Source of the DNA: Pseudocercospora fijiensis CIRAD86
Lineage: Eukaryota > Ascomycota > Dothideomycetes > Mycosphaerellales > Mycosphaerellaceae
Reading direction: 5' to 3'
Length of the DNA stretch: 64,000 bases
NCBI RefSeq assembly: GCF_000340215.1
Contig: NW_006921538.1
Span: 2,888,045 to 2,952,044 of the forward strand
Made by a program: the position numbers and the translations under genes
The notes under the pieces: model-generated
Told to the model about the DNA's origin: nothing
Seen by the model: only the letters and a program-made list of their open reading frames with translations
Database searches by the model: none
Shown here: positions 7,068 to 44,807 of the stretch, in pieces
Layout: the number at the start of each line of letters is the position of its first letter
How positions within the stretch are numbered: the first letter of the stretch is position 1

Positions 7068-7092
7068 TAATAGCACCCCCGGGGTGTTATTA
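7068..7092. repeat. 25-bp palindrome, A1 pol end
   Basis: Arms TAATAGCACCCC and GGGGTGTTATTA around a single C, 22 bp after the pol stop. One of twelve copies in the window, and it could fold into a 12-bp hairpin in RNA. Confidence 0.85.
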
Positions 7093-8281
7093 GCTAACTA
7101 ATTAGAGGCCGGCAAACTAGGACAATAAGACTATACTACTATAGTAAACGCGTACCGAGTGTTAACAAGCGCGCCGTAACGCGTTAACTATTCGCTACTC
7201 TTTTAGGAAACTACCTCTCTACTAACGCGCCCTACGAGGCCCTTCTCCTAGTATTTAGGTCCCCCTCTTGTTCCTTTATTCTATCGAGGCCTCGAGGCCT
7301 AGGCAATCGGCGAGGCCGGCGCGGCTATATTAGTAACAGTATTGCGGAGTATATTGCTATTAAGAAAGGAAGGATACAGCTATATTAGTAACGGTGTTGC
7401 CGAGTTATTATTAGTTAAAAAAGGAAATTAGAAGAAGGTAAAGTTAGCGCTAAGACGACTAGCGCCGCTATTATTAACATTACCTGCTATTGTCGCTATA
7501 CTTGCGAAGACAACCTTACCTATACTACGGCCTAAGGCCGGAAGTGCGCTATACTAATCGAGTTAAAAGAATAGCCATATTAAAGGTTTAATTAAAACTT
7601 TGAGGCCGAGTCAAAACTTTAAGCCGTCTAAAAGATTAAGCGACTAATAGACTAACTAAGGGCAAAAACTATAGAGCTAAGTTAGCTAGGGTCGATCTTA
7701 CAGACAATAGGTTACTCCTTAATCTTTCCGACCCTTTAAGCGAGGCGAACCTTAACTATTGCACTTATAATAGCCTTCACCTATAGAAACTAGACAACTG
7801 TGTTTTTTGAAAAGATAAGATAAGATTAACAATTGAAGGCTACTAAACCTAACTAATTAGGGCTAGCGAAACTACGAACAATAATAGTTCTCGTAACAAC
7901 AAGAACAATCTTTTAGAAACGGACAAACCCTCGGAGCGGACATTTCTAGGTCTTTTAGAGTAGACGCAAAGAACTCGGAACGATATTACTTAGAGCGGAG
8001 GCAGTGCTACAATACCTCGTACGTCTACCTATTATAGTAGGGAAGACGCGCTCGTATTATAATTAGTCGATAGTCCTTAATTCTCGTAGTTATATATTAC
8101 TTTATTATATACAAGGATAGCGCAGTTAGAGTTAGACATTGTATTAGAAGGTGAGGTTTAATATAGTTACATAATTAGGTAGTTAAGTGTTTAATTTAGC
8201 GCGGGCTAAGTAGCTTATTAGACTTGCTAAGTTAGCGGCGATAGAGGTCGTAGAATATAGATAGGCTACGAGGGCGCGGCC
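7093..8281 (+). other. 3' noncoding region of A1 with a 55-bp imperfect direct repeat
   Basis: No open frame. Two diverged tandem units lie at about 7322-7376 and 7377-7431, each containing CTATATTAGTAAC followed by GAGT and an A/G-rich tail. The same pair occurs in A3 (about 18360-18475) and A4. This may be part of the 3' UTR; role unknown. Confidence 0.6.
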
Positions 8282-8297
8282 TTTAGAAGGGAAGCGT
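8282..8297 (+). promoter_or_regulatory. Polypurine tract of A1
   Basis: TTTAGAAGGGAAGCG immediately upstream of the 3' LTR, the usual place for plus-strand primer. It is conserved in A3 and A4. Confidence 0.7.
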
Positions 8298-8298
8298 G

Positions 8299-8495
8299 TA
8301 TTAGGGCCAAAGAGGCTACACGTAATTAGTATATAACTAGGCCAAGTAAAGCTAGGGTCTTAGTGCCTTAGGCAGGGCTTAGCGCTTAGTAATAGGCTAA
8401 CTTGCCTGCCTTCCTCCCTCTCCTCCTAGCTCCTTATCGAATACTACTTGTACCTACTACTACCCTATCTACCTACTAACATAACCCTTCTTATA
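8299..8495 (+). repeat. 3' LTR of A1 (197 bp)
   Basis: Same length as the 5' LTR. It starts TATTAGGG (former TG) and ends CTTCTTATA, then AGTAA, the target duplication. Confidence 0.92.
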
Positions 8496-8500
8496 AGTAA

Positions 8501-8632
8501 AGAGGTAGAATCCTTAAAAGAGCAGGCGATTAGTTAATATATTATAGTATACTTGTTAATACTCGGTACGCGTTTACTATAGTAGTATAGTCTTACCTTT
8601 GCTAATAATTGCTCGCCTCTAATTAGTTAGCT
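8501..8632 (-). other. A2 3' noncoding region resumes
   Basis: Collinear with the A4 sequence between palindrome and 3' LTR. It continues from 1347 across the A1 insertion. Confidence 0.75.
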
Positions 8633-8657
8633 TAATAGCACCCTAGGGGTAGCATTA
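8633..8657. repeat. 25-bp palindrome, A2 pol end
   Basis: Arms TAATAGCACCCT and GGGGTAGCATTA, 22 bp outside the pol stop (8680-8682). Confidence 0.82.
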
Positions 8658-8679
8658 GTCCTAGGTATTTCTAGCAACA

Positions 8680-11600
8680 TTATAGGCCCTTAGCCTTCTT
8701 CTTATTCTTTATACTAGTCTAATACTCGTCTAATAGCTTAGCTATATCCTTAAAGGAACCTTTAGCTTCCTATAAGTCCTATTTAGGTAAATAGCCTTAC
8801 TATCTTAATAGGTATTCCTTCTTGCCTTGCCTAGTCCGGTGCTTTAAGATGCGTTCTATAAACTATAGCTCTTCGCCGTCTGCTAGTACCTCTTTATATT
8901 TAGTAGGGGCTTCTTTATTAGAGTCTCCGCGGTAGTAATATAGTTTAAGGAGGGAGATATAGAAGGTATTATAGATAGTATAGTATAGTAGGAGCTATAA
9001 CTAATAGGCCTAGCTATTACCCTTCGGTTCTCGGATTCGGAAGGGGCTAATAAACCGTAGTACTAGTTTAGGGCGTGTTTTGCTATTAGGCGACGGGTGT
9101 TTACGGATACGGAGGTTCTTAGTACTTAGTATAACTATATCGCCTTGCTTAAAGGTTATTAGCGTATAGTGCTTGTTATAGTAGGCCTTCTAATAGACCT
9201 AGGCCTTTGCTAGTTTGTTAGCTATCTTAGCGTGAATTTCTCGCATCTTTTAAACCCTCTCGATAGCCGCTAGTATCTTAGGGGCTAGTACTTAACGCGC
9301 TTCCCTTTCCTTACGCTTAGCCTCGAGCGATAGGGGGTCTTATAGTATAGCAGCGTTCTAGCCTATTATAGCTATATATAGTAAGACCTTAGTTAATAAG
9401 TAGACACTGTTATTATATACGAATTTAGCTAGTTATAGGAGGTTAACCTAGTCGTTAGGGTTCTCGTTAATGTAGCTACGTAGGTATTGTTATAGGGTAG
9501 CATTTTGCCTCTCGGTTTAGCTATCTATTTATAGATAGAAGGCTATAGATAGCCGATGCTTAAGTCTTAGCTATAGGCATATTTCACTCTAATAATAGGA
9601 TATAAATGTCGAGCCCTAGTCGGAAACTATCCCTTTAGGGGTTCCCTAATAGCTATAGAAGATATTATTCTATAACGATTTAGCTAGGTTAATAGCCGTC
9701 TAATCCTTCCGGGTAGGGATATAACGAGCCCCCTTAGTAAATCGATCTACTATAATAAGGATAGCATCGAAGATGTCCTTACTACCCCTACGCTTAGTAG
9801 GCGGAAGGCCTATAATAAAGTCTATTATTAGCTCTACAAATAGCTTCTTTAGAATAGGAAGTAAAGACAACTCGCCGAATAGTAAGTGCTTTAGTACTTT
9901 AACTCGTTAATATATAGCACACGTGTTTACGTAGTCCTTTATATCCCGCTTACTATATAGCTAGTAGTATATACGCGATAGTAGCTTGTGCGACCTCTCT
10001 ATACTATAGTAACCGGCAAGCTTACTATTATAGTATCGCTTAAGAAGCTCTTGTCGGATCGAATACTCGGTAGGGATATATAATCTACCCTTATAGCGTA
10101 AATAGCTATTAGTATTAATCGACTAATTCTTGCTAGATCTAGTCTTACGGCTACTTCTAAGCTAATCTATATAAGTAGTAGCAAAAGCGCCCCTTTACTA
10201 AGTACGTAATAGCTTATCTATAAACGCTCGCCTATCTCCTTCTATAAGTTCGCTTAATAGTACCCTCGCTATCTTACGTAGTACGTACTATATACATCTA
10301 GTAGCACTAGTAGCTAGATTAACTATAGTAGTACTGTCGCTATTACTATATATAGCGATATCGACTAGGGAATTATTATAACTCTTCCTATTAGTATTAT
10401 AAGCCCTTGCCTTAATACGCACTATTAATATAGCAAGGGTATTAATATACTTTAAGCTATCGCGGAGTCCGGTAAGCCGCTTATCCTACGCTTACTTATT
10501 AACAATATAGGCTATAGCAATCCTATACTATAGGGTTAGAAACAATAAATTAATATACTAAGTCTCGCTATTATAATTAGGTCGCCTTAATAGGCTATTA
10601 GGAGGGTTACTTACGCCTAGCCGATATAATATATTAAAATCGAACCCGGCGAGGTAGACGGCCTATCTAGCCTATCGATCTACAACCCTTATAACCTTAG
10701 TAATCCTACGTAGGTTGTTATAGTCTATATAGACCTAAATAGGGTACTAAGCACTATCGAGGTAGTAGCGCTAATGCTTAAAGGCTTCTACGATTACTAA
10801 GAGCTCTTGCTCGTAGGTCTCGTATCGACGTTCTATATCGATTATCTTCCGTAAAAAGAAGGCAATTAGGTGCTAGTAATGTTATTAGCCTATTGTAACA
10901 TAATAGCTAATATAGCGAACTGTAAAGCGTTAGTCTTAATACGGATCTGCCTACTTAGTACGAAATAGTATAACAAAGGGACTTTAGTAAAGCGTTGCTT
11001 TAAACTGTTAAAAGCGGCTTATACTTTGTTAGTCTATTTAAACTCTCTATATAGGTTAGCCTTAGTTTTAGTAAGCTTAGTTAGAGGCATTATATGCCGT
11101 AAATAGCCTTTAATAAAGCGGCGATAGAAGTTAGCGAAGCTAAGGAACAACTATAGCTCCTTAATTAACGTAGGAATAGGCTATTTAGTAATAGTCTAGA
11201 TACGGTTAGGGTTAGCCTTAATACCCTTAGTTAATACGAGGAAGCTAAGGAAGGCTACCTCTTTAGTAGCAAAGGTGCATTTAGAAGGCTTGTAATATAG
11301 TCTATAGGCCCGTAGGCGGTCGAGTACCTTACGTACTATAGCCTAGTGCTCTATAATATTAGGTAAATAGGTATAAACTAGGATATTATCTAGGTAAACT
11401 ATATAGAGATAGTCTAGTAGGCCTAATAAGGCCCGATTAATGTAGGACTAGAATATTGCAGAGGCATTAGCTAGGCTAAATAGTATAACTAAATACTCGA
11501 AATAGCTATAGCGAGTATAGAAGGCTGTTTTCTATTTATCGCCCTTACGAATGCAAATACGATAGTACGTATCCTTAATGTCTAGTATAGTATAAAAGCG

Positions 11601-12317
11601 GGCGCTAGAAAGGCGATTAAGGGTCTCGTTAATAAGCGGAAGTAGATAGCGGTCCTTAACAGTAATAGTATTAAGCCTACGATAATCGATATATAGGCGT
11701 AGGCTACTATCCTTCTTTAGTACGAATAGGATAGGTATACTAGCAGGGCTGTTACTATACTAAATTCGACTATTAGCTAGGTTCTTATCTAGGTACTTAC
11801 GCAATATAGTAAGCTCTCGTTTACTAAGGTTATAGAGGGGCCTAAAAGGAACCTCCTTACCCTATATAATATCAATCTTATAGTCCGTCTCTTTAAACAT
11901 AGGCAATGTCGATACTAGGTAGTATTTAAATATATTAATATAGGTCTCTTAAATAGGCTACGGTATACGAGCAAGCTAATTAGGGTCTATACTATTAGGG
12001 GGTATAGGCTTATCGTTATTACCTAATAGGTCGACTGTTAGGTTAGCTACGGCAGGTATTAGGTTACTAATAAATAGGACCCTAATATCGTTAGGGCACT
12101 CGCTAACGTCGATATACTTAATGTCCTCCTTCCTAGCGATTCTAAATCGCTACTATTAGAGGCCTAAGTCTATAGCTATAGCGTAGTACTTAAGGACAGG
12201 GTTGCTAATAACAATATTAGATAGAAGGCTATCTATATCTACTATATAGGTAGTAAAGTCTAATATCCGCTTATTACCGAGGTCGCCTTTTAGACCTATA
12301 GGAATATAGTAGGCTCT
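8680..12317 (-). pseudogene. pol of A2, main part
   Basis: Chromodomain, integrase, RNase H, RT and the distal protease in reverse order along the plus strand, collinear with A1 and A4. Cut at 12313-12317 (GCTCT) by insertion of A3; the first codons lie at 19531-19779. It is full of TAG/TAA and is the most degraded of the four pol copies because it is the oldest. Confidence 0.8.
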
Positions 12318-12514
12318 TGTTAGGGCTAAAGAGGCTATACGTGATTGGTATGTAACTAGGCTAAGTAAAGCTAGGGTCTTAGTGCCTTAGGCAGGGCTTG
12401 GCGCTTAGCAATAGGCTAACTTGCCTACCTTCCTTCCTCTCCTCCTAGCTCCTTATCGAATACTACCTATACCTACTACTACTCTATCTACCTGCTAATA
12501 TAACCCTTCTTATA
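12318..12514 (+). repeat. 5' LTR of A3 (197 bp)
   Basis: Begins TGTTAGGGC. Contains ATCGAATACTA at 12455-12465, complementary to the primer site. Confidence 0.93.
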
Positions 12515-17100: not shown

Positions 17101-18068
17101 GCTATTAGGGAACCCCTAAAGGGATAGTCTCCGATAGAGGCTCGACATTTATATCTTACTATTAGAGTGAGATATGCCTATAGCTAAGACTCAAGTATCG
17201 CCTATCTATAGCGTTCTATCTATAAACAGATAGCTAGACCGAGAGGCAGAATGCTACGCTGTAGTAGTACTTACGAAGCTATATTAATAAGGACCCCGAC
17301 AGATAGGTCGACCTCCTATAACTAGCTAAATTCGTATATAACAACAGTGTCTACTTATTAACTAAGGTTTTACTATACATAGCTATAATAGGCTAGAACG
17401 CTGCCTTACTATAAGATCTATTCTCCTCGCTCGAGGCCGAGCGTAAGGAAAGGGAAGCGCGTTAAGCCCCTAAAACACTAGCGGCTATCGAGAGGGTTTA
17501 AAAGATGCGAGAGATTCACGCTAAGATAGCTAACAAACTAGCAAAGGCCTAGGCCTATTAGAAGGCCTACTATAATAAACACTATACGCTAATAACCTTC
17601 AAGCAAGGCGATATAGTTATGCTAAGCACTAAGAACCTCCGTATCCGCAAACACCTGTTACCTAATAGTAAAACAAGGCCCAAGCTTACACTAAGATATA
17701 TTAGCCTATTCCGAATCCGAGAACCGAAGGGCAATAGCTAGGCCTATTAGTTATAGCTCCTACTATACTACACTATCTATAACACCTTCTATATCTCCCT
17801 CCTTAAACTATACTACTACCGCGGAGGCCCTAAAGAAGCCCCTACTAAACATAAAGAGATACTAGCCGACGGTAAAGAGCTGTAGTCTATAGAACGTATC
17901 CTAAAGCATCGGACTAGACAAGGCAAGAAGGAGTACCTCCTAAGATAGCAAGGCTATTTACCTAAATAGGACTCGTAGGAGGCTAAAGATTCCTTTAAGG
18001 ATATAGCTAAGTTGTTAGATAAGTATTAGACTAGCGTAAAAAACAAGAAGAAGGCTAAGGGCCTATAA
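14169..18068 (+). pseudogene. pol of A3
   Basis: 1300 codons in one frame. Starts with an intact ATG at 14169 that overlaps the gag TGA as ATGA, so it was probably translated by termination-reinitiation, though a -1 frameshift on the adjacent A run is possible. Domains as in A1: protease, RT from about 14841, RNase H, integrase, chromodomain (about 17880-17985). Oddity: the RT box reads YLDK (15348-15359 region) instead of YLDD. GAT to AAA is not a RIP change, so this copy may have been defective before RIP. Confidence 0.88.
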
Positions 18069-18081
18069 TGTCGCCTAGGAA

Positions 18082-18106
18082 TAATGCTACCCCCGGGGTA
18101 CTATTA
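18082..18106. repeat. 25-bp palindrome, A3 pol end
   Basis: Arms TAATGCTACCCC and GGGGTACTATTA around C, 13 bp after the pol stop. Confidence 0.85.
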
Positions 18107-19312: not shown

Positions 19313-19327
19313 TTAGAAGGGAAGCGT
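19313..19327 (+). promoter_or_regulatory. Polypurine tract of A3
   Basis: TTTAGAAGGGAAGCG directly before the 3' LTR. Confidence 0.7.
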
Positions 19328-19328
19328 A

Positions 19329-19525
19329 TATTAGGGCTAAAGAGGCTACATGTAATTGGCATGTGACTAGGCTAAGTGAAGCTAGGGTCTTAGTGCCTTA
19401 GGCAGGGCTTAGCGCTTAGTAATAGGCCAACTTGCCTGCCTTCCTCCCTCTCCTCCTAGCTCCTTATCGAATACTACCTGTACCTACTACTACCCTATCT
19501 ACCTACGAACATAACCCTTCTTACA
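19329..19525 (+). repeat. 3' LTR of A3 (197 bp)
   Basis: Ends in an unmutated TTACA, which fixes the family's 3' terminus. Followed by GCTCT. Confidence 0.93.
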
Positions 19526-21244: not shown

Positions 21245-21269
21245 CAATAATACCCCCGGGGTAGTATTG
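21245..21269. repeat. 25-bp palindrome after B1 ORF3
   Basis: Arms CAATAATACCCC and GGGGTAGTATTG around C. The outer C and G are unmutated here. It lies 53 bp beyond the ORF3 stop. Confidence 0.87.
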
Positions 21270-21322
21270 TTCCTAGATTCTATTAATATGCAAAAACAAC
21301 TTCCTAAGCAAACAATCTACAC

Positions 21323-24478: not shown

Positions 24479-24503
24479 TAATAATACCCCTAGGGTAGTA
24501 TTA
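24479..24503. repeat. 25-bp palindrome upstream of B1 ORF3
   Basis: Arms TAATAATACCCC and AGGGTAGTATTA, about 420 bp upstream of the ORF3 start. Confidence 0.84.
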
Positions 24504-24932: not shown

Positions 24933-24957
24933 TAATACTACCCCCGGGGTAGTATTA
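24933..24957. repeat. 25-bp palindrome after B1 pol
   Basis: Perfect arms TAATACTACCCC and GGGGTAGTATTA around a C, 270 bp beyond the pol stop. This is the cleanest copy in the window. Confidence 0.9.
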
Positions 24958-30425: not shown

Positions 30426-30705
30426 TATTAGCTAGTAACCGGCCCTATATACCTAGGCTAAGTTTTAAGCCTATATAAGAGGCCTCCTTCTATATTACAG
30501 ACAGGACACTAACCTCGTATAGCATATTGTTTATATTACACTTCTATAATGCCTATATTGCAGGGCTCTAGTTATTAGCCTAAGCAACTGTCTTATTATC
30601 CTATTATACTAAACGTAGCTACCTATATTGCTATAGGTTATATTACCCTCGGTAGCCTATACTGTTACTACAGGTAGTAGTAGTAGTATTAGTTTCCGTC
30701 CTTTA
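30426..30705 (+). repeat. 5' LTR of B2 (280 bp)
   Basis: Starts TATTAGCTAG, ends CCGTCCTTTA, preceded by CTAG. Ends with a TAG triplet repeat near 30677-30690. Confidence 0.92.
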
Positions 30706-31528
30706 TTAGAGCCGAAGGTAGGGCTATCTCTTTATATCTAATAGGTTCGGGTATATCGAAGGTAGTCCTAGGGCACGAATAGCTATAACTAGAGCGAGGG
30801 TACGATAAGAGCCTACGATATAGACGATATAGAAGTATCTTAAGGGGCTATTACGACAAGCGAAGGAACCTCTTAACGAGGGCATCTCTTTAACCCCGAA
30901 AAGCTACAAACCCTTAGGACTATTATAGCTTAGGGCCTAGTCTATAGCTATAGCTAGCTTCTAAGGACTCGGCTCCGGGTCGAAGACCTATTTAGCACCG
31001 CTTGCTCGAGATAAGCCCCGCCTAAGGAGGAGATAGACTAATTACCTATCGGCCTTGCTTAGTTTGCTAAGACTATTAATTAATAGCAAATACGGCTTGT
31101 AGGTCGGATAGCCGGGGAGTCCCCTATTAATCGGGTAGGGCGTTCCTAGATTCGTAGCCTCGCTTAGACAGTGCTTAGCCTTCTACTAGAAAAAGAAGGC
31201 TACCGCCCCCCCTATCTAGCTAAAGGAGATACGAGCTAGTTTCTAGGATCTAGGTATAAATAGAGATTGTAGTCTCTCCCTCCGAGCGGCTTTCGTCTAA
31301 TACTAAACTAAGCTCCTAGAGGTAGTTAGGCGACCCCTAGGAGGCTAAATCCTAATGCTACCCCTAGGGTAATACTAGGAGAAACAGCCTAATACACTAT
31401 TCTCTCGCATAGCAATATTATAATAAACCAAGCAAACTAAATATACTAAAAACACATTTATATAGCATTTCATTTCAACTTTATATAGCATTCTATTTCA
31501 ACTATTTCACCTATTTTACAATAATCGA
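30706..31528 (+). other. Leader of B2
   Basis: The bases right after the LTR (TTAGAGCC) could be a mutated primer site of TGG type for an unidentified tRNA. No frame is supported. The only other signal is the palindrome at 31353. Confidence 0.5.
31353..31377. repeat. 25-bp palindrome upstream of B2 gag
   Basis: Arms TAATGCTACCCC and AGGGTAATACTA, 151 bp before the gag start. Confidence 0.82.
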
Positions 31529-34500
31529 ATAAGCTCTAGCTCTAGCGAAAACGAGTATTAAGAATTAGCGGAATCCTCTAAATCCGAAAACGCCCCTAAT
31601 CCTATTAACGAAGAAATTAGGCGGCGACTAGTTAATATAAGTAAGCCTCCTACGCCCTCTACGCTAGAGGCGCTCTATACTGTCCTTATAAAGATAATAG
31701 AGAAGCAAACTAAGCTTCTCCGTTAAAACAAACGTCGCCCGCTAGAACTAGGGAGTAGTACAAATCCCTTATTCGAAGGGTAGAGCGCTATAGTATATAT
31801 AGAGCGTTTTAAGGAAGGCTTAATTAAGTACGAGCTCGATAGAGAGTCCGACTAGTATAAGATCCGGTCCCTTACGAGGACTACTAGTACTAAGCTTTAC
31901 CGAACCCTTAGAACCCTAGTTAGCTACCTAGAAAAGGACGACAAGTCTAATACTAACTAGGAGACCTTTAAGTTAGCCTTTCTAAGGGAGTATCGGGAGC
32001 GCGATAGCCGTCGTATTAAAGGCAGTCGCGCGTAGCTCGAGACCTTCTACTTAGTAAGGCGTACTAAGGATAACGATCTAAAGGGGTATATTCGCGAATT
32101 TGTCGAGTTAGCGGACGGCATCGAGTAGAGTAACCTCGAGAACTCTTAGAGAACGAGGCTACTCCTCTAGGGATTGCCGTAGCCTATAGCTTAGCGTGTC
32201 TTCCGTCGCTATAAGCTTAGCGAGGCCGATCCTAAGAGCTTTAGGAAATACAAAGAGGTCCTAGTGTGTATTAAGGCCGACATTAATAGTACCGCCGATG
32301 CGAGGAAGTTTATCTACGGCGAAGATAGGAATAACCTAATATAGGTTAGGAAAGAAGCCTTAGGAAGCAAGGGACCTAAGTTCCTCCCTAAATCGCAAAG
32401 TAGTCCTAAGACCGTAACTCCTACTATTACTAAGTACTCTTAAGACGTTGCGGACTTAGCTAAATCCCTAGCCCGACTTTACCTAAATACGAAGGCATTA
32501 CAACGAGTTAGGGAAGTTATCGATACTACTATACTAGGCGATGTGCTACTAGTCTACTAGGTTTTAGACCCTAACTACCCTAAAGCCCCTTTAGTAGATG
32601 TCTACGCTATACGGAAGATCTATTCTAACTTGGATAGCAAGTGCTAGATATATAGCGGGTTTAAATATATCTAATCGTCCTACCCTATCTAGAAAGAGCT
32701 TCTTAAAAGGAAGCTTATTATACAAGTAAATAGCCGATTCTACTATATAGACACCGGCGACAAGATTAATTTCGAATAGGATCGGAGAGCCCCGAAGCTA
32801 CCTTAGCTAAAGACCCTTCTAGAAAAGAAGTATAGCGGCAAGATCGAGTTTAAGGATACTAGGAATAGTACCCTCGCCGCTATTGCTAAACGAGAAACTT
32901 AGAAGGTTAGGGCTAAACAGGTTAAGGAGCGAAGTAGTAACGGTACTACCGAGCCCGTTAAAGTTAACTTTGTTTCTTAGGACCTAGACGCAGTTACTAA
33001 TGTTTACGCGGTTACTAAGAACAGTATAGATGTCTACGCTACTACAAGGTCCTAAACCTAGTCCTAAAACAAGGGCAAGAGCCCGTAGAACCCTACTCGC
33101 CCTAGTGCGGCAGCCCCTACTAGGGTACTAAAGAATAAGGCGGCCGATAAGGCTAAACAATAACGAGAGTTAACCGCTAAAACTAAGACTCTCTAGACAG
33201 CTACAGACCGCGCTGCCCGATCTAGTACCGCACCTAGTACCCTATCTATAGAGAGCCTAGTCGTCCTAGAGACTCTAGAGGTTGATATAGAAGATGTTGC
33301 TACCGATATTAGTAGTACCCTAGGGCTAGCTAATCTACCGGCCTATAAGCGGAAGTTATCCGATCTAAAGAGCTTTCGCTTTAATAGGTATATAAACAAG
33401 TATAGTGCTAGCCTAGCTAACTCCGTAGATACAAAGGCAAACGCTCTCTTCTAGGCTTTATAGTTCCTAGACCTTAAGTCTAATATATCTATAGGAGAGC
33501 TGCTAGCGTACGGTTTACCTACTAACCTATTCTAGAGCCGAATCCTTAACGATGCTACCTTTATAAAAGATCTCGCTACCCTCCGACGAAAACAGGGACG
33601 AGAAGACTATATCGACGTCTCTTCCCTATAGTTCCTTCCTAAATTTTTAGGTACCTAAGAGTTAGTAGAAGGCGAATCGTTAACCTACAAGAACTAAGAG
33701 ACTATCGATAATGCTAACGAAGAGGGAGTTAAAGAGATAGGCCGAGGGGATAGTAATAATCCCGACCCTACTCTAGTTTTAGTTTCTATTAAGGCTATCC
33801 GATTTACTAGCTAACAAATCGGTCGAGTAGGACCTCCTCGACCTAAGGAACTTTACTCTATCCCTAATAATATAGACCTTTCCGCAGTTACCCGTTCCTT
33901 CGCCGTCGTTCCTACTATCTATATTCAAGTTACTATCGGGAGCTATAGTTAACAGATGCCGGTAATGCTTAATAATAGTTCGGAGTTACTTATTATAAGT
34001 AAGCGTTAGGCTAAACAACTTAGGCTGCTAATAAATAGAGACATTTCCCTCGGTATATAGGGAGTAAATAGGGAGGTTACGCTAGTAGGTGCTTGCTATA
34101 ATATTATAGTAGACGCCTTCGGTATATGCTTTTCCTTTACCTTCTAGATTGCCGCCGACCTAAATACGCTAATTATTCTAGGTCGACTATAGTCTCGTAT
34201 AACCCGTAGTATCTAGCGCAACTACGACGATAGCTCCTAGAAGGGAACTATCGCTAACTAGAAGGGCAACCGAGTCGTATTTACTAGTTATATCGGTAAC
34301 ACTAGCTACAAGTCCTACGAGGATATCCTTGCTGCTTCTAGACGGTCTTCGGGAAACGCTATAGCGCGGTTGTAAGACCGGCAATCTGCGCTATAAGTTA
34401 GTATAGCTTAAATAGGTCATTTCTAGAAGTACGCCGCTTCGTACGTTAAGGCAAGTTTCTAGGTTCTATACTAAGAAGACGAATGCTCGAAGCGATAGCG

Positions 34501-34588
34501 AGCATAATATAACGACTACCTACTATACGAGTTAAGGTAATAATACTATCGTAAGTATTACTACCGGACGCGGGCCTATCCGAACTAA
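31529..34588 (+). pseudogene. gag-protease ORF of B2 (1020 codons)
   Basis: Starts at ATA (former ATG) followed by a Ser run, MSSSS-like, the same style as ORF3. N-terminal acidic Ser-rich part, capsid-like helical region about 31750-32560, linker with many Ala, Lys and Thr residues about 33060-33260, then a retropepsin-like domain about 33890-34200 (LLIISKRWAKQL-type core with the Trp now a stop, and LIILGRL). Fusing protease to gag rather than pol is typical of this FLDD-RT fungal gypsy lineage. Ends at TAA about 18 bp before a palindrome; some stops near the end could be mutated Gln. Confidence 0.78.
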
Positions 34589-34606
34589 CTAATTAGAGCG
34601 CGAGTC

Positions 34607-34631
34607 TAATACTACCCCGGGGGTGTTATTA
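34607..34631. repeat. 25-bp palindrome between B2 gag-protease and pol
   Basis: Arms TAATACTACCCC and GGGGTGTTATTA around G. Pol opens about 35 bp further on. Confidence 0.87.
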
Positions 34632-34665
34632 CGAATCTAACGTTTTCGCCGGCGTTATAAATTGA

Positions 34666-37600
34666 GACTACTAGCTGTATACCTATCGACTTAAGGAAAC
34701 TTCTAAAGAAGTTTACGCGCTGTTTTATTGCGCTAATCTCTAGGCCTAGCGACAAAGAGAGAGAGCTCGGGTTCGATAATCGATTAGTATATATACTCTA
34801 TATAAGAGGGTAGCTAACAAGATTAAGCCCGTAAAGGGTAGCGTATACATTACCGATAGATCTAATCCTAGCGGGAATCCTAACTAGCGACAAAAGTGTC
34901 TTAATTAGGAAGCAATATTGCTACCTAGGGATAGTCCGTACGATTAGAGATATATTACTAAAAAGTTCTCTACTATTCCTAGGGGTTTAAGGCTAATACC
35001 GGAAAGGCTTGCGAAGATCAAACCTAGTATAGAGCTTTCGGAACGTAAACTAGACCTACTATACGAGCTTCTATACAATCGCGAAGCCGTATTAGTATAT
35101 AACTTCACTTACCTAGGCAGAATTAACCCGGAGGTTGCCCCTCCGTAGAAGATCCGAACAATCGAATATAAGCCTTAGGCCTACCTAGGTTTCAAGTTAA
35201 ACCTAAGCCTACGGGGTATAGTTAAGGATATAATACGGCAACGCGTAAAGGCCGGCATACTTAAGCCTTCCTATGCCTCGTATCGCAATCCGTACTTCCT
35301 AGTTTAAAAGAAGACGGCTCCTAGGGAACTAAAGAAGTACCGTCTAATTAACGCTATATAAAAGTTTAACGCGGTTACGATTAGAGATACTAACCTTCCT
35401 CCGGAGACTAATAGGTTCTTAGAAGCCTTTACTAACTGTATTGTAGCCTTACTAGTTAACGTTTTCTCGGGCTACGACTAGATTCCTCTTTACCCTAATA
35501 GCCGCGACCTTACTAGTTTCGAGACACCTCTTAGGCTATATAAACAAACTACCCTTCCCTAAGGGGCAACTAACTTAGTAGCCTAGTTCGTTCGCATTAT
35601 AAACTAAGTCCTCGCGGCCTATATCTCCTATATAGCGATGCCTTTCCTCGACGATATCGGTATTAAAGGGCCTAAAACTAGGTACGATAATAAAGAAGTA
35701 GAGCCTAGCATCCGTAGGTTCTTTCTCGAACATATCTAGAACCTCGATAGCGTCCTCTACGACCTAGAGCGAGCTAATCTAACGGTATATAGGGAGAAGC
35801 TTTAGCTCCTATACAAACGAATAAACATTATCGGGTTTGTAACCGATAAAAACGGCCGCTATCCTAATAATGCACGGGTCCTAAAGATAGTATCCTAGCT
35901 AGATCCTACCTATTAGAAGGATGTCCGAACCTAGCTTAGAGTAGTCTCCTACTTCCGTATCTAGGTCGAGAACTTTGTATTAGCTTATAAGCCCTTATAC
36001 GCCTTGCTTAAGAAGGATACTAAGTTCGAATAGACCCCCGTTTACTAAGCGGCTAAGGACAAGGTAACTAAGGCACTCGTTAGCGCACCTATACTTACGT
36101 CTATTAACTACTTAGAGGGTGCGGGTTTAATAGTTGTTACTATTAACTCGAGCGGGGAAGGCTATAGCGAGATACTAATATAGTGTAACCGTAAAGAACT
36201 ATCTTTGCGTTACCCTATCCGGTACGACTTAGGGCTATAGAAACCGATCGAGGCCCGGTACGATACTAGCAAGCGGGAATGCCTTAGAGTCTATAAGGCT
36301 CTAAAGAAGTTCCGACTATAGCTCTTTAGTATATTCTTTCGCCTAGAAATCGATGCTTAGACGCTAGTCTATTAGCTTAACCGTATAGCCTCCGACCTGC
36401 CTAACTCTGCGATAGCTCGGTAGGTTGCCTAGATCTATTTGTTTAACTTCGACGTCTTCTACGTTCCTAGGAAGAAGTATACTAGACCGGATAGCCTTTC
36501 TAGGAGGCCTACTACAGAAGAGGACATTACCGAAATAATAGAAAAGGAAGATATCGACGCGGTTGTTAACCGCACCTTCTTTACTGCCTTCTGTATTAGC
36601 GCTATACTAGCGATTACTAGGTCTGCTGCCGACGACTAGCCCGATAACTAGCCCGATAACTAGCCCGATAACTAGCCTAGTAACTAACCTAATAAAACTA
36701 ACGAGTAGCCTAAAAACCCTACTACTAATAGCGACTAGGCTAAAGCTAAGGCGGATGAATTAGATAGAGATAATATCCTTAATAGGGTCTACTTCGACGA
36801 CTTCTATTATATCGCCTACTTCCTAATCTATACAAAGAAAGCACCTAGTCTATTAAAGAGTTAGTACCGTCGGGTTATTCGCTATTCTCGACGATTCCTA
36901 GTTAAGGATCGCATCCTTTAGCGATAGGCGATAGTTAATACACCCCTCTAGCGTATTATTAATAACCCTATAGCAAGACAAGAAATCCTTTACGTAGTTT
37001 ACGACGAGCTTAGCTACCGGGTAGCGGAGGGCACCTTCGATATCCTTCGTCGACGATACTAGTAGGATAGCGTATAGGCTAATGTCTCTCGCTACTATAA
37101 GAGCTGTCCTAAGTGCAATTTTAGGAATAGCTACCGTCGGCTAGGCGAGCTGCGTATCCCCGCTACCTAATTAGTTAGCGAGCGATAGTACGGTAATAGG
37201 GTTTATCTAAGCCGGAATAATAGCCTCTATATTATTTAGGAAGGTCTTTCTCGATAGCCTAAAGCCTATTATTTCCGCAAGGGCTATAGTGCTATTAACG
37301 CCTATAACATAGCTACCTTCCTATTTAAGGACCTATTCTACCGATAGGGTACGCCTTATAAAATTATCTTAGACAACGCGACGACTAATATAGCTAAAGA
37401 AGTTTAAGCGCTACTTACTTTATACAGGGCGAAGACCGTTCGCATCTCCCCGTACTATCCCTAATCTAATACTATTGTTAAGCGCGGCTATCGGTCTTTA
37501 ATCGATGCCTTATCTAAGCTAACTAATAGAGGTAATAGATTAGTCGCGATCTCTACCTACGTCCTAGCCCTTCTCTAGGTAGACCGAACGACCGTTATCG

Positions 37601-38406
37601 ATACTACTAGCCTAACACTAGTAGAGCTTATAATTGGAAGAGACGCTGTTCTTCCGATTAAGTTGTCCTACCGTACGTATAGCGTTTACGACTAGGGGTC
37701 TGTTCGTACTAGAGCAGATCTCCTTACCCTACGCGCTAAGGCTCTAGAGGATATAACTACTACTTCTTAGGAGGGACTTGCTCGATAACGTCGCCTTCGT
37801 AAAGAGGCTAAGTAGTATTTCGACGACTATAATACTATTAATTAGGAACCTCTAAAGGTTAGCGATATAGTTCTCCTATACCGGTCGGAGCTAGAATATA
37901 GTTACTCCTATAAGCTAGCCTTTAAATAGAAAGGACCTTATAGAGTGTAGGAGGTCCTTTACGATAGTTCTACGTACCGTCTTTAGGAACTTAATAGTGC
38001 TACCTTGAAGCACTCGTACCCTCGGGCTAACCTAAAGAAGATCGTCGAGTTACGAGAACCTACCCGCTCTCCCCCGACCGAAGAAGAAGTTAGTACCTCT
38101 ACGGACCCTCTACCGACCTTAGATGCCTATCGGGAGGAGGATCCTACCGCGATTATAGATCCTATTCTGCCTAACAACTATACGTATCCCTAGATACGTC
38201 TTAGTAAGCCACTAGGAATAACTTATAAACAGAGGGAGGGTTATATGCGTATTAATTGCGCGTAGAGCATTTCCGATATTAATTCCGATAGTAAACTAGA
38301 CTTCTAGCTATCTAACTCTAACTCCGAGGAGGAACTCGACTAGTCTAGCGACGAAGACCGCCTAGAATTATAGGTATTAAACGACCCCGACCCCGAGACT
38401 AAATAA
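34666..38406 (+). pseudogene. pol of B2: RT, RNase H, integrase (1247 codons)
   Basis: Single frame, opened by a TGA just upstream (34663-34665) and closed by TAA at 38404. RT about 35100-35900, with PYFLV, KYRLINA and the catalytic box FLDD in place of YxDD (35644-35658). RNase H about 36060-36500, ending in FDVFYVPRKK and LSRRP. A four-residue Pro-Asp-Asn repeat follows. Integrase: zinc region about 36940-37130, core D, D, E about 37230-37520, C-terminal Pro/Glu/Asp tail 38005-38400. No chromodomain, unlike family A. Start codon not identifiable. Confidence 0.85.
36635..36692 (+). repeat. 12-bp codon-aligned tandem repeat in B2 pol
   Basis: About five copies of CTAGCCCGATAA between RNase H and integrase, encoding a repeated (Gln)-Pro-Asp-Asn unit with Gln codons now TAG; the last copies are diverged. 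Confidence 0.75.
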
Positions 38407-38675
38407 TTGCTTACTCTTCCTTGCCTCTATCTGCCTCTACTACGTTGCTTCCTTACTCTTGTTAATCGTTCTCCGCGCTGTTAATGTAGTGCCGCCCTAT
38501 ACCTTTAGTCCTTACCTATTATCCGTTCCTACTAATGTTTATACTCTCGTTTATTGCTTTTAGTTTATCTTATTATTGTCCTTTGCTTTTACCTTTGCCT
38601 TCGATTAATGTTGCTATAACTTTATTCCTTTGCTCTTGTTTTTCCTTAGATAGAACTGTACGAGGCGTGTTTTCC

Positions 38676-38700
38676 TAATAATATCCCGGGGGTAGTATTA
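38676..38700. repeat. 25-bp palindrome after B2 pol
   Basis: Arms TAATAATATCCC and GGGGTAGTATTA, 270 bp after the pol stop, at the same spacing as in B1. Confidence 0.85.
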
Positions 38701-39120
38701 GAAAGATAGCCGAACCTAACCCTCTACCCTCCTAGGACTACTTCCCTCTAGCTTCCTAGACTCTAGCGACTACCCTTAGATATTAACTACAATAAGATAC
38801 TCTACTAGAGACTGTTCCTGCCCTAATTAGTACTAGTTACGTAGGACAACTAAGAAAGGGAGGTTCCCTATCCCTCTCTATCGCTTAGATAGATATAGTA
38901 ACCTAGGCCTATAGCCTCTAAGAATAGGGACCTTAGGCTATTAAGCTTAGTGTTTAGAAGAAGGAAGAAGGTAAACGTACGGACTACCTTTACGTACTTG
39001 CTAATATAAAAGGTAATGCTGCATCTATAACGGTAGTACTATAGACTAATATACCGACGAATTAGCTACGCTAGGCCTAGGCGACTTGCTCCTCGTCGCC
39101 GAGCATCTCTAGAGAAAAGC

Positions 39121-39145
39121 TAATACTATCCCGGGGGTGTTATTA
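39121..39145. repeat. 25-bp palindrome upstream of B2 ORF3
   Basis: Arms TAATACTATCCC and GGGGTGTTATTA, about 430 bp before ORF3. Confidence 0.84.
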
Positions 39146-39469
39146 GTCCCGCTAGCCTTACTACTATAGATTTCTGCTAGGGACTCGAACTAACTAGTTA
39201 CATTTCGAGTACGCGAGAGTCTACGATAGCTAAAGTTTAACAAAGGCGCGTAGTTGCTACCGGCAATTAGCTAGATCGATTGTTAAACTTTAGCCTATCC
39301 TAATAATAAAGAAGTCTCGTATATAGCTTTACTTTTATATATAGCCGTTATCCGTTTGCTTTACTAGCGCGGTATATACGGACTACGTTACCTTCGTACC
39401 CTATTTAAAGCGAGCTTCCTAAGCTCTTTCTTCTACTCGATTACTAACTAACTCGCTACCGCCTAGCTA

Positions 39470-39489
39470 CCCCCCCCCCCCCCCCCCCC
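39470..39489. repeat. C20 homopolymer upstream of B2 ORF3
   Basis: Twenty C in a row on the coding strand, 86 bp before the ORF3 start. The equivalent B1 tract is 14. Confidence 0.85.
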
Positions 39490-39574
39490 TTCTATCTAAA
39501 CCCTTTAATTATTACTACTAAGTAGCGAACATACTTGCAAGCCTGTTTCTAACCTACTTCCGCTTCGGTCGACT

Positions 39575-42322
39575 ATATCTTCCGGCGCCCTAAATCCGCT
39601 AGGCGCTAGTAGCAGTAACGACCTACCTACCCTTATTAACCTAAGCCTAGCCGCCCTAGTCCCGATCGAAGCCCTATCCGATAGCGCCTTAGCTACTATA
39701 ACTAGTCTCGAGCACTACTTCTAGATCGTTACCGCCCTTAAAGATCCTTAAGAGAAGATCTAGAATGCTCGCACCCTACTATACGTTATCGATAGGAATA
39801 TTAAGAAGGCTGCTATCTTAGTTACGTACGGCATAAACAACTTGCGTTAGTCTATCGGTAAACGCATCTTTAAGCGCGAGGTTCTTAACGATATAGATAT
39901 TAAGCAAGCCTTTCCTATCGTCTATAGCCTCGAGATAGCCGGTACCTAGATTCGTTTACGCTTTAAGACCCTCGACTAGGCCTTCGAACACTAAGGAGGA
40001 CTAAGTAGTCTTCCTAAGAGCCTTGTTAACTTCGCCTACGGTAGACAAGAGCGTACTAAGCAGGTCTCTTCGTTCGTTAACAAGTATAAGGTCTATCGTT
40101 AAGGCGCCGAGCACCTTTCCCGCACTATAATCTATCGTATATCTACCGCTAGTAAGAAGGTAGGCAAGTAGTTACTTAACTTGTCCTTTGCGCTTAACGA
40201 CTTTACGATATCCTACTAGAAGCGGTACTACGATACAATTATAGAGATCGATCTTGATATACAGATAACTAAGGATCTGCTAAAAGAGAAGGGCTATCGT
40301 ATTAATAGTATAAGCTTTATTGTTGAAGGTTAAGAGGCCCCTATCGTTAATGTTCTTAAACGCAAGGCTCTTCGCCTAGAAATAGAGGCCGATACGGCTA
40401 CTAGTCTCGCGCTCGCTATAGAAATGTAGGCTAAAGATCGTCGCTCGACCCGTAACCGTAAGGTCCCTTAAGAAGTTAAAGACGAGCGCGCTAAGGCCGA
40501 AGTAGCGCGTAAGAAGGCATTGTATACTCGCTAGGCCCTCCGTAAGGCTACTAAGAAGTATAGCGCCCCTTCTAGTACTAACTATAGTACTAACCGTAGT
40601 AACTCGGATATTAATATACTAGATATGCTACTAGAAGATATCTCCTCCGAAGGCTCCTTTAGCGAGCGTAGAGATAGAGGCCTCTCGCCGATCCTATTAA
40701 CTAAGAACATCTATAGTCCCTACAAGGGCGACTCTATTACGTACCTTATTACTAAGATCGATATAGTTCCTAAAGCCGATATAGGTAAAGCTCCTACCGC
40801 CCTATCTATCTATTAACAGCTCGACGACCTTAGTAAGCTAGGTAAAGAGCGGTTTACTATATATACTAACTATATTAAGAAAGCCGCTAAGGTATATAGT
40901 CTTTATACTAGTACTAAGACGAGTATCCTCGTCGGTCGCCTATTAAAGATTAGTCGCGAGGTTGCTAATTAGGATGCCTTTACTACCCTTAAGACTAGTT
41001 ATACTAACTAGTTTCCTAGACGTCCTACTGCCGCCCCGACCTCCCTAGGACTCTACGTATTCAACCCTACTAGCACTATTACTCGCGATCTTACGCTAAC
41101 TAAGCGTTAGTACAAGTTAGTCGCTAGCATTCTCGGCTAAGGCACCTCCTTCGACCGCTTTCGTTAGACTAGCAATGCTATCTTCCCTCGAGTCTTCGGT
41201 TAGATACAGTCGCCTCGCGGAGCGTACCTTCCTCTTATTATCGACCTAATATAGGAGGAGTTTCGTATATTCTTTTAGTATATGCGTAAACTGCCTAAGT
41301 CTAAGTAGGAAGGCCGTAATGCCCTTTAAACCTATAGAGTAAGCAACTAAATCGTCCGTTAGCATCCCGCCTTATAGCTCTTAGCCGTTACCCTTCGACC
41401 TAATTACGTATACGAGCTTATCTCCGTCCCTAAGCCTACTAAGTACTTTAAAGTAGGTAATAGCGGTTATAAGAACTGCCCTACTAAGGAGACTTCTCGT
41501 CTCGGATAAGATATAGTTAAGCTCGTAGCTAGTAAGGGTGCTAGCTATCTGCGTATTAAGGTTTCTCTTATGTCTAAAGATAAGACCGCCTATTTAACTA
41601 TTATCGAGGGTATATACGAACTAGAGGTCTTCGAGAACTAGGTTAAGAAGCTTAATGCCCGTAGCCTAGTTCTACTAAACAAGATTAGCAAGCTTACTAA
41701 CAAGCACCTTACTAACAACGACCTCGGCTATATGTTCGATAGTTAGACTAACGAAGGCGAGGCAGCTTAGTAGATCCTTAACCCTCTAAAGGAATGCGAA
41801 GTCTCTATTTAGATACTATACCTTCCGTATAGTAATCTAAAGCCCGAGAGCGACCGTATATTAATCGACCTAGGCCACTCTTATATTATCGATAGCACTA
41901 AGATTAAGGGCTACGATAACTTAACCGTCGCTAAGGTTGCTAAGGCGGCCGCGTACCGCAATCTAACCGCCCTTCTAGGTTCGAACACCTTCGTGCCGTT
42001 CGCCTTCCCTACCGCTATCTTAGTCGAAGGCCTTAGTTGCATTTCCGATACCCTAGTCGGTAGAATTCCTTAGTCAAGTTACGTTGTTTAGAACGAAGTT
42101 AAACAAATCCTCTAGTTTAGCGAGGAGGAGCTTAAGGAATATCTACGCGAGTAGGAGAACGCTATATAGGAGAAGGCTGCTAACCTCCTCGTTACTTAAG
42201 CTTACTACGAGGCCGAGTACTTTAGTACTAACAGCTTTAATACCTACGGAGGAGTTTTAGAGAACCGCCTAGCTAATAAGGTTATTGCTAGTAAGGATTA
42301 CGGTGTATTAAAGCAGCAGTAA
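39575..42322 (+). pseudogene. ORF3 of B2, unknown protein (916 codons)
   Basis: Counterpart of the B1 ORF. Start is ATA (ATG in B1), stop TAA after two Gln codons, no frameshift in 2748 bp. Regions: N-terminal helical part (about residues 30-230), basic Lys/Arg/Glu segment suggestive of a coiled coil (about 255-300), Ser/Asn linker, a conserved middle block (EDISSEGSFSERRD, 40625-40816), then a long C-terminal half with alternating beta-like and helical stretches (RILIDLGHSYIID near 41850). I recognise no known domain. Position after pol recalls env-like or accessory ORFs of plant and animal LTR elements, but membrane features are lacking. It could be a second structural protein or a captured host gene. 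Confidence 0.78.
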
Positions 42323-42515
42323 GTCGGTATAGTAGACTAATTACTTAGGATTGTTTTGCATGTTAATAGATTCTAGGAACAATGCTACCCCGGGGGTATT
42401 ATTAGGAGTTTCTGCAAAATGGCCCTAGCTAAAGATGCCTAAGGCAACTATATACCTGTTTGTTTTTAGCGCGCAATGTAAAGCGTGTCTAGTTAGACAC
42501 GAAGAAAGGGAGGGA
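42323..42515 (+). other. B2 3' noncoding segment and polypurine tract
   Basis: Contains the palindrome at 42380 and, at 42501-42515, the polypurine tract GAAGAAAGGGAGGGA abutting the LTR. No gene. Confidence 0.75.
42380..42404. repeat. 25-bp palindrome after B2 ORF3
   Basis: Arms CAATGCTACCCC and GGGGTATTATTA around G, 57 bp after the ORF3 stop. The left arm appears to be in its unmutated form. Confidence 0.88.
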
Positions 42516-42795
42516 TATTAGCTAGTAACCGGCCCTATATACCTAGGCTAAGTTTTAAGCCTACATAAGAGGCCTCCTTCTATATTATAGATAGGGCACT
42601 AACCTCGTATAGTATATTGTTTATATTACACTTCTATAATGCCTATGTTGTAGGGCTCTAGTTATTAGCCTAAGCAACTGTCTTGTTATCCTATTATGCT
42701 AAACATAGCTGCCTATATTACTATAGGTTACATTACCCTCGGTAGCCTATACTATTACTACAGGTAGTAGTAGTAGTATTGGTTTCCGTCCTTTA
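42516..42795 (+). repeat. 3' LTR of B2 (280 bp)
   Basis: Same borders as the 5' LTR; differences are mostly C/T and G/A. Followed by CTAG. Confidence 0.92.
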
Positions 42796-43340
42796 CTAGG
42801 TTGCCGGCTATAGATACTAGCTACGGACAAAAGTTATACCTTATATAAAACGAGAGCGAGGCTCTCTACCTTATCCCGTCTTATTGCTACAATAAGTTTC
42901 TCGACTTTCGACTTTACTTTATCCTTATCTAGGATCTTCTATTAGTCGTCGTTTAATAGTGCAATTTTAAGCGTCTTAAAGAGGGCTCGGATCGCGATTT
43001 AAACTATATAAGCGAGGTAGGGAAACTTCTATAGGGATGCAACTAGTAACGACGTCGGCTCCGATTTAATAGGGCTAGGGCTATTAATAGGCTCCTCTTT
43101 ATCGTTATTATCGTGCGTATTATCGTGCGTATTATCGTGCGTATCCGGAATCGTAGCGAGCTTAATATTCGGAAGATTAAGCTAGATTGTAGACCTTATA
43201 ATCTCCTCTACGTACTCGACCCTATCGATATAATTAGTGATTTTAAAGACATATACGAGTGAATTGTATATACAACGCCTTATATAATATTCGATTATTA
43301 CTAGCGTTGTCCGTAGTAATCGAGATCAGTTTCGTTATTA
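42796..43340 (-). pseudogene. hAT transposase, central part
   Basis: Minus-strand frame between the A4 and B2 insertions: the end of ITTDNASNN, an acidic linker with a Thr-His-Asp-Asn repeat, then the LAYIVQIAIRAL segment typical of the hAT central region, and VEKLIVAIRR. A predicted intron starts at 42839 (GTATAA) and continues across B2 to an acceptor at 30397. Without B2 it is about 69 bp long, and it carries a GCCGGC unit (42802-42813). Confidence 0.8.
43107..43144 (-). repeat. 12-bp codon-aligned tandem repeat in the hAT gene
   Basis: Three copies of TTATCGTGCGTA, encoding a four-residue His-Asp-Asn-Thr unit in the acidic linker. Confidence 0.75.
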
Positions 43341-43345
43341 CGCTA

Positions 43346-43542
43346 TGTGAGAAGGGTTATATTAGTAGGTAGATAGGGTAGTAGTAGGTACGAGTAGTAT
43401 TCGATAAGGAGCTAGGAGGAGAGGGAGGAAGGCAGGCAAGTTGGCCTATTACTAAGCGCTAAGCCCTGCCTGAGGCACTAAGACCCTAGCTTTACTTGGC
43501 CTAGTTACATGCTAATTACGTGTAGCCTCTTTAGCCCTAATA
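43346..43542 (-). repeat. 3' LTR of A4 (197 bp)
   Basis: Outer end keeps the complement of ...CA (TGTG on the plus strand). The inner end is next to the polypurine complement. Confidence 0.92.
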
Positions 43543-44782
43543 TACGCTTCCCTTCTAAAGGCCGCGCCCTCGTAGCCTGTCTATATTCTACGACCTCTAT
43601 TGCCGCTAACTTAGCAAGTCTAAGAAGCTGCTTAGCCCGCGCTAAATTGAACACTTAACTACCTAATTATGTAACTATATCAAACCTTACCTCTAAACAA
43701 TACAATATATAACTCCAACTGCGCTATCTCTATATACAATAAACTATAAAGTAATATATATCTATAAGAATTAAAGGCCTTCGACTAATTACAATACGAG
43801 CGCGTCTTCCCTACTATAATAGGTAGACGTACGAGGTATTGTAGCACTGCCTCCGTTCTAAGTAATATCGTATCGAGTTCTTTGCGTCTACTCTTAAAAG
43901 ACCTAGCAATATCCGTTTCTAAGGGTTTGTCCGTTCCGAGGGTTGTTCTTGTTATTACGAGGGCTATTATTACTATCGTAGTTTCGCTAGCCCAAATTAG
44001 TCAGGTTTAGTAGCCTTTAAGTGTCAACCAATTATATCTTTTCAAAAAACTCAGTTCTTCTAGTTTCTATAGGTAAAGGCTATTATAAGTACAATAGTTA
44101 AGGTTCGCCTCGCTTAAAGGGTTAGATAGATCGAGGAGTAACCTATTATCTGCAAGATCGACCCCGGCTAGCTTAGCTCTATAGTTTTTGCCCTTAGTTA
44201 GTCTATTAGTCGCTTAATCTTTTAACTTAGTCAAAGTTTTGACTTAGCCTTAAAGTTTTGATTAAACCTTTAACAGGCTTACAGCTTTTAATTAAAGTTT
44301 TAATTAAAGGTGCCTTAGGCTCGTAGTGTAGGTAAGGTTGTGTCTATAGGCGTAGCGACAATAGTAAGTAACGTTGACAATAGTAGCGCTAGTCGTCTTA
44401 GCGCTAACTTCACCTTCTTCTAATTTCCTTCTTTAACTAATAATAACTCGGCAATACCGTTACTAATATAGCTATATTCTTCCTTTCTTAAATAGCAATA
44501 CACTCCGCAACACCGTTACTAATATAGCTACGCCGGCCGCCGGCATACTGCTAGCTCGTAGCGCGACACTATCATCCTCGATAGGATAAAGGAATAAGAG
44601 GGGGGCCTAATACTAGGAGAAGGCCCTATAGGGCGCATTAGTAAAGAGGTAGAGCCCTTAAAAGAGTATACGATTAGTTAACGCGTTATAGCGCGCTTGT
44701 TGATACTCGGTGCGCGTTTACTATAGTAGTGTAGTCTTATTGTCCTTCGTTGCTAACAATTACTTGCTTCTAATTGGTTAGC
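43543..44782 (-). other. 3' noncoding region of A4
   Basis: Counterpart of 7093-8298 in A1, including the two-unit direct repeat near 44420-44530. No frame. Confidence 0.6.
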
Positions 44783-44807
44783 TAATAGCACCCCGGGGGT
44801 AGCATTG
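44783..44807. repeat. 25-bp palindrome, A4 pol end
   Basis: Arms TAATAGCACCCC and GGGGTAGCATTG, 22 bp outside the pol stop. Confidence 0.86.

Follow-up and report, generated by a model that had tools for sequence, protein, structure and literature searches.

A shared 25-bp palindrome at gene borders of Copia and Gypsy retrotransposons of Pseudocercospora fijiensis, a candidate protein-binding dyad

Introduction

Why should retrotransposons that have almost nothing else in common carry the same short palindrome beside their genes? The question is raised by a stretch of 64,000 nucleotides from Pseudocercospora fijiensis CIRAD86 (RefSeq assembly GCF_000340215.1, contig NW_006921538.1, positions 2,888,045 to 2,952,044 of the forward strand), which we call the window; in the genome as analysed here (73.9 Mb, 30 contigs) it is C7:2888045-2952044. 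An initial annotation, made from the letters of the window, had pointed to 12 copies of a 25-bp palindrome at open reading frame (ORF) borders of two unrelated families of long terminal repeat (LTR) elements. Short cis sequences are not expected to be common to unrelated retrotransposons, and a sharply bounded 25-bp site in both Copia and Gypsy elements, preserved while their subfamilies diverged, would suggest a host factor on which these elements depend or which they must escape. Here we describe the sequence, positions and conservation of the palindrome, and weigh a tentative reading of it as a DNA dyad, recognized by a dimeric protein, against the alternatives.

Results

The palindrome is found genome-wide and in at least four LTR families

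A 25-bp quasi-palindrome is present at all 12 of the reported places in the window. Seven of these sites are exact matches to the pattern YAATNNNACCCCNGGGGTNNNATTR; those at 8633, 24479, 38676 and 39121 depart from it at one position, and that at 31353 at two. Scanning the window with up to three mismatches recovered the same 12 sites and no others. Genome-wide, the exact pattern has 1606 matches, compared to ∼0.003 expected by chance (40% GC) and none for the reversed control. The site is thus a genome-wide one, as the initial annotation had thought worth checking, and 1606 copies refute its origin by a single local recombination between two families.

To place the sites, we read 40 stretches of contig C1 (labelled L0xx), chosen from 84 distinct places, all on C1, that were listed among the 1606 matches; each covers or adjoins such places, and together they contain 65 of the 84. 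With the window's 12 sites, and with up to three mismatches allowed, this gave 96 sites. All 96 lie in four LTR families: A (16 sites), B (74, at the five positions B1 to B5), C (5) and C2 (1). At least four LTR families therefore carry the palindrome, two of them copia, rather than the two families named at first. Four further stretches contained B3 or B5 sites throughout, and the remaining sites of the genome may belong to other families or to host DNA. No further site class was seen in the fetched DNA at up to four core mismatches, the four-mismatch matches looking like chance or lying elsewhere in B. IMG/VR holds no match to the pattern. We found no earlier report of the motif in a literature search that left most subscription journals outside; in the portions of text available, PMC3562529 and PMC13041039 contain neither 'palindrom' nor 'hairpin', and PMC4981457 does not contain 'palindrom'.

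The sites lie mostly at the borders of genes

The window contains no stop-free stretch of 200 codons, its copies being riddled with stops of the type made by repeat-induced point mutation (RIP). Coding regions were therefore mapped from substitutions other than those of RIP, by their codon periodicity. Family A is gypsy: in Pfam, 34 stop-delimited pieces matched three families, RVT_1, RT_RNaseH_2 and Integrase_H2C2. Its features in the window are as follows.

1355..8499, plus strand: family A element, with LTRs at 1355-1554 and 8301-8499, gag at ∼1955-2915 and pol at ∼3055-7055
7068..7092, plus strand: palindrome of the A copy at 1355-8499, 22 nt after the pol stop; AGC + GTT block variant
8633..8657, minus strand: palindrome 3′ of pol in a minus-strand A copy that is interrupted by the nested copy 1355-8499
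18082..18106, plus strand: palindrome of the A copy at 12320-19523, 13 nt after the pol stop
44783..44807, minus strand: palindrome of the A copy at 43343-50551, after pol

In A, the pol codon phase ends at ∼5640–5700 and the site is at offset 5713. A TAA lies 13–22 nt upstream of the site in 16 of 16 copies, and translation of the four window copies identifies it as the pol-frame stop, which bears out the single site 13–22 bp after pol described for this family. Beyond pol, the element at 1355..8499 has ∼1.2 kb without coding signal. This copy is itself nested in another, minus-strand A copy (window 1-12319).

Family B has more genes and more sites, distributed in the window as follows.

30426..42799, plus strand: full-length family B element with five sites; LTRs at 30426-30709 and 42516-42799
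31353..31377, plus strand: B1, in the leader, ∼0.6 kb upstream of the gag coding signal
31985..34330, plus strand: gag-like coding region (approximate; codon periodicity, third position in phase 1), with no convincing Pfam match
34607..34631, plus strand: B2, between gag and pol, where the pol coding signal sets in
34626..38326, plus strand: pol coding region (approximate; codon periodicity, third position in phase 0)
38676..38700, plus strand: B3, in the gap, ∼0.3 kb downstream of pol; its blocks have the opposite orientation to those of B2, B4 and B5
39121..39145, plus strand: B4, in the gap ∼0.5 kb before ORF3
39665..42305, plus strand: ORF3 coding region (approximate; third position in phase 1), with no convincing Pfam match
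42380..42404, plus strand: B5, directly 3′ of ORF3
21245..21269, minus strand: B5 of the minus-strand B copy (20847-26669), after ORF3
24479..24503, minus strand: B4 of the same minus-strand copy
24933..24957, minus strand: B3 of the same minus-strand copy, the only window site with 12 of 12 arm positions complementary

With offset 0 at window position 30426, the leader of B runs to ∼1500 without signal and is followed by the gag-like region (∼1560–3900), a gap, pol (∼4200–7900), a second gap and ORF3 (∼9240–11880), after which there is no signal. The sites start at offsets 927, 4181, 8250, 8695 and 11954, all outside clear coding signal. All five positions named in the initial annotation are thus real, although its 'before gag' and 'before ORF3' were loose: B1 and B4 are ∼0.6 kb and ∼0.5 kb away from these genes, and B3 lies ∼0.3 kb after pol. 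A TAG retained in 15 copies starts 6 nt away from B5. The gap between pol and ORF3 (38326-39665) amounts to ∼1.3 kb without coding signal and holds two sites 445 bp apart. ORF3 itself (39665-42305) is a region of ∼880 codons under codon constraint.

The assignment of B as gypsy-like comes from one weak match only, to RT_RNaseH_2 (E 0.0081, among 79 pieces from B copies searched at E 0.1). Four other matches among these 79 pieces, with E values of 0.025–0.093, were taken for noise, and an earlier set of 55 stop-delimited B pieces had no Pfam match at E 0.01. Since no convincing match fell in ORF3 pieces, ORF3 is left without a name. Some beta-type copies of B (L011, L017, L023, L024 and L031) contain a short alpha-like tract at offset ∼7948–8457. 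This tract reflects recombination between B subfamilies, spans B3 and does not end at sites.

Families C and C2 belong to copia, as shown by matches to RVT_2 inside two of the fetched stretches, L013 and L043. They are 79% alike over 5 kb and have the site at different places and in different orientations. In C, codon phase is the same on both flanks of the site, with weak signal right at the site. C2 has no site at the gag-protease junction; its one site lies after pol, in the opposite orientation. A natural stop before the C site was considered and rejected, as the TAG found there corresponds by eye to CAA at the homologous C2 codon; the TAG is probably a RIP stop. At the gag-protease junction of C2 (L045 ∼1025-1163, minus strand) the sequence reads GAATACACTACTCTTATTC, with complementary ends GAAT/ATTC, and is possibly a worn remnant of the site.

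Two other observations concern copia copies. At L020:1-840 (minus strand), next to a copia C copy, a frame open for 280 aa contains an IBR domain (E 5.5e-7) and is likely a host gene. Outside the window, at C20:264311-265054, a copia reverse transcriptase is encoded within a reading frame of 1288 aa that has no break. The element is probably Sagui, a copia that PMC3562529 reports as potentially active and places on scaffold 20.

The arms obey a stricter rule than a simple palindrome

Comparison of the sites refines the rule to (Y/G)AAT-RNY-ACCCC-S-GGGGT-RNY-ATT(R/C). Both arms of every site class retain AAT and ACCCC, in a scan tolerating up to three mismatches, and in the classes seen the core of both half-sites is invariant up to the 1-bp centre. 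The blocks written 'NNN' are not free but R-N-Y. With an intact core, R-N-Y is broken at four sites genome-wide (pyrimidine first at two forward and one reverse, purine last at no forward and one reverse), and the centre is A or T at eight.

At the outer ends, an A..T pair has no match genome-wide. G or C outer ends occur at 82 sites, and the 50 of these that were listed are all complementary (28 C..G and 22 G..C). Those that can be classed are mostly B5 and one B3 subfamily, and so count as few events. A site outside the window, C1:5628484, combines B1-like blocks with C..G ends. It had been supposed that all arms were originally CAATGCTACCCC, a view that does not hold: the outer base is always T in the fetched copies of B1, B2, B4 and C; only A and B5 show C there, and one B3 subfamily has G..C.

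In most classes, one arm has the block GCT and the other AAC, AGC or GTT, differences that were not made by RIP alone. The middle block pair is non-complementary in 84 of the 96 sites even when a transition is allowed; in these sites both blocks read GYT (or ARC) along one strand, without a change of direction. It is complementary in the other 12 (8 B1, 3 A and 1 B3), and L046 is a perfect palindrome. In B3 and C2 the site is inverted, and inverted sites begin TAATAAC. Compensatory changes between the arms are confined to the outermost pair (T-A, C-G, G-C), where they trace to few lineages; none is seen in the eight core pairs.

The families share little beyond the site, whose conservation predates RIP

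Matches between families at E 0.01 are only 25–28 bp long and lie at the sites, so the families share the palindrome with almost no flanking homology. With its conservation and its genome-wide occurrence, this upholds the earlier proposal of a shared module at gene borders of unrelated elements. Among rows spanning each position, the site is present in 8/8 for B1, 15/15 for B2, 20/20 for B3, 19/19 for B4, 17/17 for B5, 16/16 for A and 5/6 for C, the sixth C row being a C2 copy without the site there. One caveat here is that these counts are biased, an exact site having been the reason for fetching a stretch.

We also counted columns that vary by transversion. In B, with all rows included, none of the 80 core columns (16 positions at five sites) does so, compared to 7.27 expected from the 200-bp flanks. 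The corresponding values are 0 and 1.90 for A, and 0 and 9.2 for A and B together. Because the fetching biased this first test, it was rerun without the rows chosen for their site, keeping those whose locus has another exact site or which come from the window, in all 76 rows of A and B. The result held, with weaker P values: no core column varies versus 8.0 expected (P ∼3e-4) or, under a stricter rule in which the minor class must be seen twice, versus 4.4 expected (P ∼0.012), where P values treat columns as independent. The rerun left our weighing of the explanations unchanged. For C, with one unbiased row only, all rows including the site-less C2 copy give 3 versus 1.7 expected under the loose rule and 0 versus 0.5 under the strict one. 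These data place both half-sites under sequence constraint in A and B, in substitutions that RIP does not make.

Discussion

What might the palindrome do? It consists of two inverted half-sites (GGGGT-RNY-ATT) one bp apart, the fixed spacing of a dimeric operator. The purine/pyrimidine symmetry of the blocks, the 1-bp centre, the identical half-site sequence and the occurrence of both orientations were all counted for a DNA dyad. We therefore lean, tentatively, towards the 25-mer being a sequence-specific DNA dyad bound by a dimeric protein, and favour this over an RNA hairpin. The binder would most likely be a dimeric nuclear host protein. LTR elements of two superfamilies would keep the dyad in non-coding gaps beside genes and one copia family in the gag-pol linker. 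Once bound, the dyad could act on transcription across the integrated element, either by pausing or terminating it or as an internal promoter or insulator that separates cistrons; a transcriptional role is a guess from position. Of the mechanisms offered in the initial annotation, a protein-binding site fits best, as a candidate; an RNA hairpin is weakened and polycistronic restart unsupported.

A bolder version of the dyad proposal, which we consider somewhat doubtful, is that Copia and Gypsy elements converged on, or passed around, one dimeric-protein operator, and that B splits its 12-kb polycistronic element by means of five copies into cistrons under separate control. If true, one host factor would control unrelated retrotransposons. 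Such a factor, if found, would give one point of access to many retrotransposon families of a large genome rich in repeats, and would reveal how polycistronic LTR elements can keep their genes apart.

Several points weigh against a protein-bound dyad. None of the 96 sites examined is in host DNA, and a host factor of general use would hardly be expected to have all its sampled sites in LTR elements. Covariation of the outer pair is more natural for base pairing or arm-to-arm copying, and the outer ends of A read C..A in 8 of 16 copies (in a second scoring, 7 plus one gap). In C, the zinc-knuckle frame passes through the site into protease, which puts the site inside the gag-pol frame. As the pattern was also the means of finding the site classes, any class whose core departs strongly from it would escape. 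Finally, (C/T)CTAGGA beside the site, seen by eye, is common to A, B5 and C2. This shared flank hints at copying between families, and movement between elements, as envisaged in the initial annotation, is possible.

An RNA hairpin is in our view the less probable explanation. The sense transcript would fold as YAAU-x-ACCC/GGGU-x-AUUR and act in processing, in stability (e.g. by shielding a stop codon from nonsense-mediated decay) or in translation of the downstream cistron. Site positions suit such a role in A, where the pol stop is 13–22 nt away in all 16 copies, in C2 just after the end of pol, and in B after ORF3 and before pol. The covarying outer pair (T-A, C-G, G-C) also suits it, as do the G-U wobbles among the block mismatches in the sense RNA of most A copies, B2, B4, B5 and C. 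Alone, the 25-mers fold at -3.7 to -8.4 kcal/mol, and one perfect copy at -14.3 (z -4.5). In 105-nt contexts, however, none of six sites folds more stably than shuffled sequence (z -0.57 to +0.78), a weak test given that the sequence is RIPped. The sense version of B3 and C2 is the weakest (-3.7 kcal/mol) and has no block wobbles, and the core pairs lack compensatory change in the classes seen. Complementarity continues into the bases next to the centre, with 1 nt between them, so that a hairpin could not pair fully and has no need of this symmetry, and B1, B3 and B4 lie hundreds of bases from coding ends. Restart of translation at UAAUG was also considered and rejected: an in-frame TAG follows the ATG in 8 of 15 B2 copies (those in which GGAATC follows the site), B4 is far from ORF3, and the inverted sites begin TAATAAC.

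Still less likely is that the 25-mer is a tiny mobile or repeatedly copied palindrome, without function for the element, that rides in LTR elements wherever it is tolerated. Its differing place and orientation in the otherwise similar C and C2 would fit, as would its sharp borders, the 7-bp flank common to A, B5 and C2, and positions at which inserts do little harm. At a given position the blocks also differ from copy to copy, and the changes tend to perfect the palindrome (window 24933, L046 and three A copies). On the other hand, none of the 96 sites lies outside LTR families, no target-site duplication was seen by eye in the flanks, and the core is more conserved than the flanks even in rows not chosen by their core, unlike a neutral passenger. 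Two other ideas we regard as very improbable. The 25-mer might encode a protein motif, N-A/x-T-P-G-V-L-L, such as a cleavage site in the Gag/protease polyprotein. In C the gag frame does cross the site with equal phase on both sides, and the C/G centre and the TTA/CTA differences are synonymous in that frame. This in-frame NATPGVLL reading looked strong but is largely refuted: the DNA around the A, B1, B3 and B4 sites shows no codon periodicity, B3 and C2 carry the site in the inverted orientation, and the homologous gag-pol of C2 is continuous yet lacks the site there. Nor do we give much credence to a recombination site for exchanging gag, pol or ORF3 modules as cassettes. The five B sites bracket every gene and the families are modular, but no cassette is common to the families, and the alpha/beta breakpoints in B, near 7950 and 8460–8560 with others in L011, do not coincide with the sites at 8250 and 8695.

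How does the palindrome compare with known systems? Arm-to-arm correction is an outcome of quasipalindrome template switching, and the changes to perfect arms (L046, window 24933 and the A variant) would fit such copying in replication or reverse transcription. The same process is possibly a source of the outer-pair covariation without selection for pairing. It is a mutation mechanism and does not supply a function; the part of PMC7202029 available to us describes mutation of imperfect inverted repeats by template switch in Escherichia coli. With UAAUG systems the palindrome shares the TAATG that begins several sites and the location of B2 between gag and pol. Some non-LTR retrotransposons and fungal viruses use termination-reinitiation at UAAUG, where stop and start overlap; an overlap of this kind is not found at the palindrome. 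Operator-type inverted repeats are bound by dimeric DNA-binding proteins and resemble the palindrome in their inverted half-sites, fixed spacing and tolerance of both orientations; the difference is that the palindrome has so far been seen only inside retrotransposons.

The nearest published thing that we found is the Conserved Hairpin Site of GalEa Copia elements (Donnart et al. 2017, PMC5445492). According to the portion of that paper available to us, this is likewise a short palindromic cis element of fungal Copia, of unproven function, whose extended form is conserved within five species, even across distant families. It follows the 5′ LTR immediately, the elements concerned having no primer binding site, and consists of CTGATCAGT/CTAATTAGT with a partner 12–41 bp away. 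The sites described here are farther inside, the nearest to a 5′ LTR being ∼640 nt inside B and those of A and C >1 kb inside. They also do not contain CTGATCAGT or CTAATTAGT with a partner, the core reading AAT-RNY-ACCCC-S-GGGGT-RNY-ATT. The GalEa site, as described in that portion, belongs to Copia GalEa only and not to gene borders, whereas the 25-mer stands at gene borders of both Copia and Gypsy elements.

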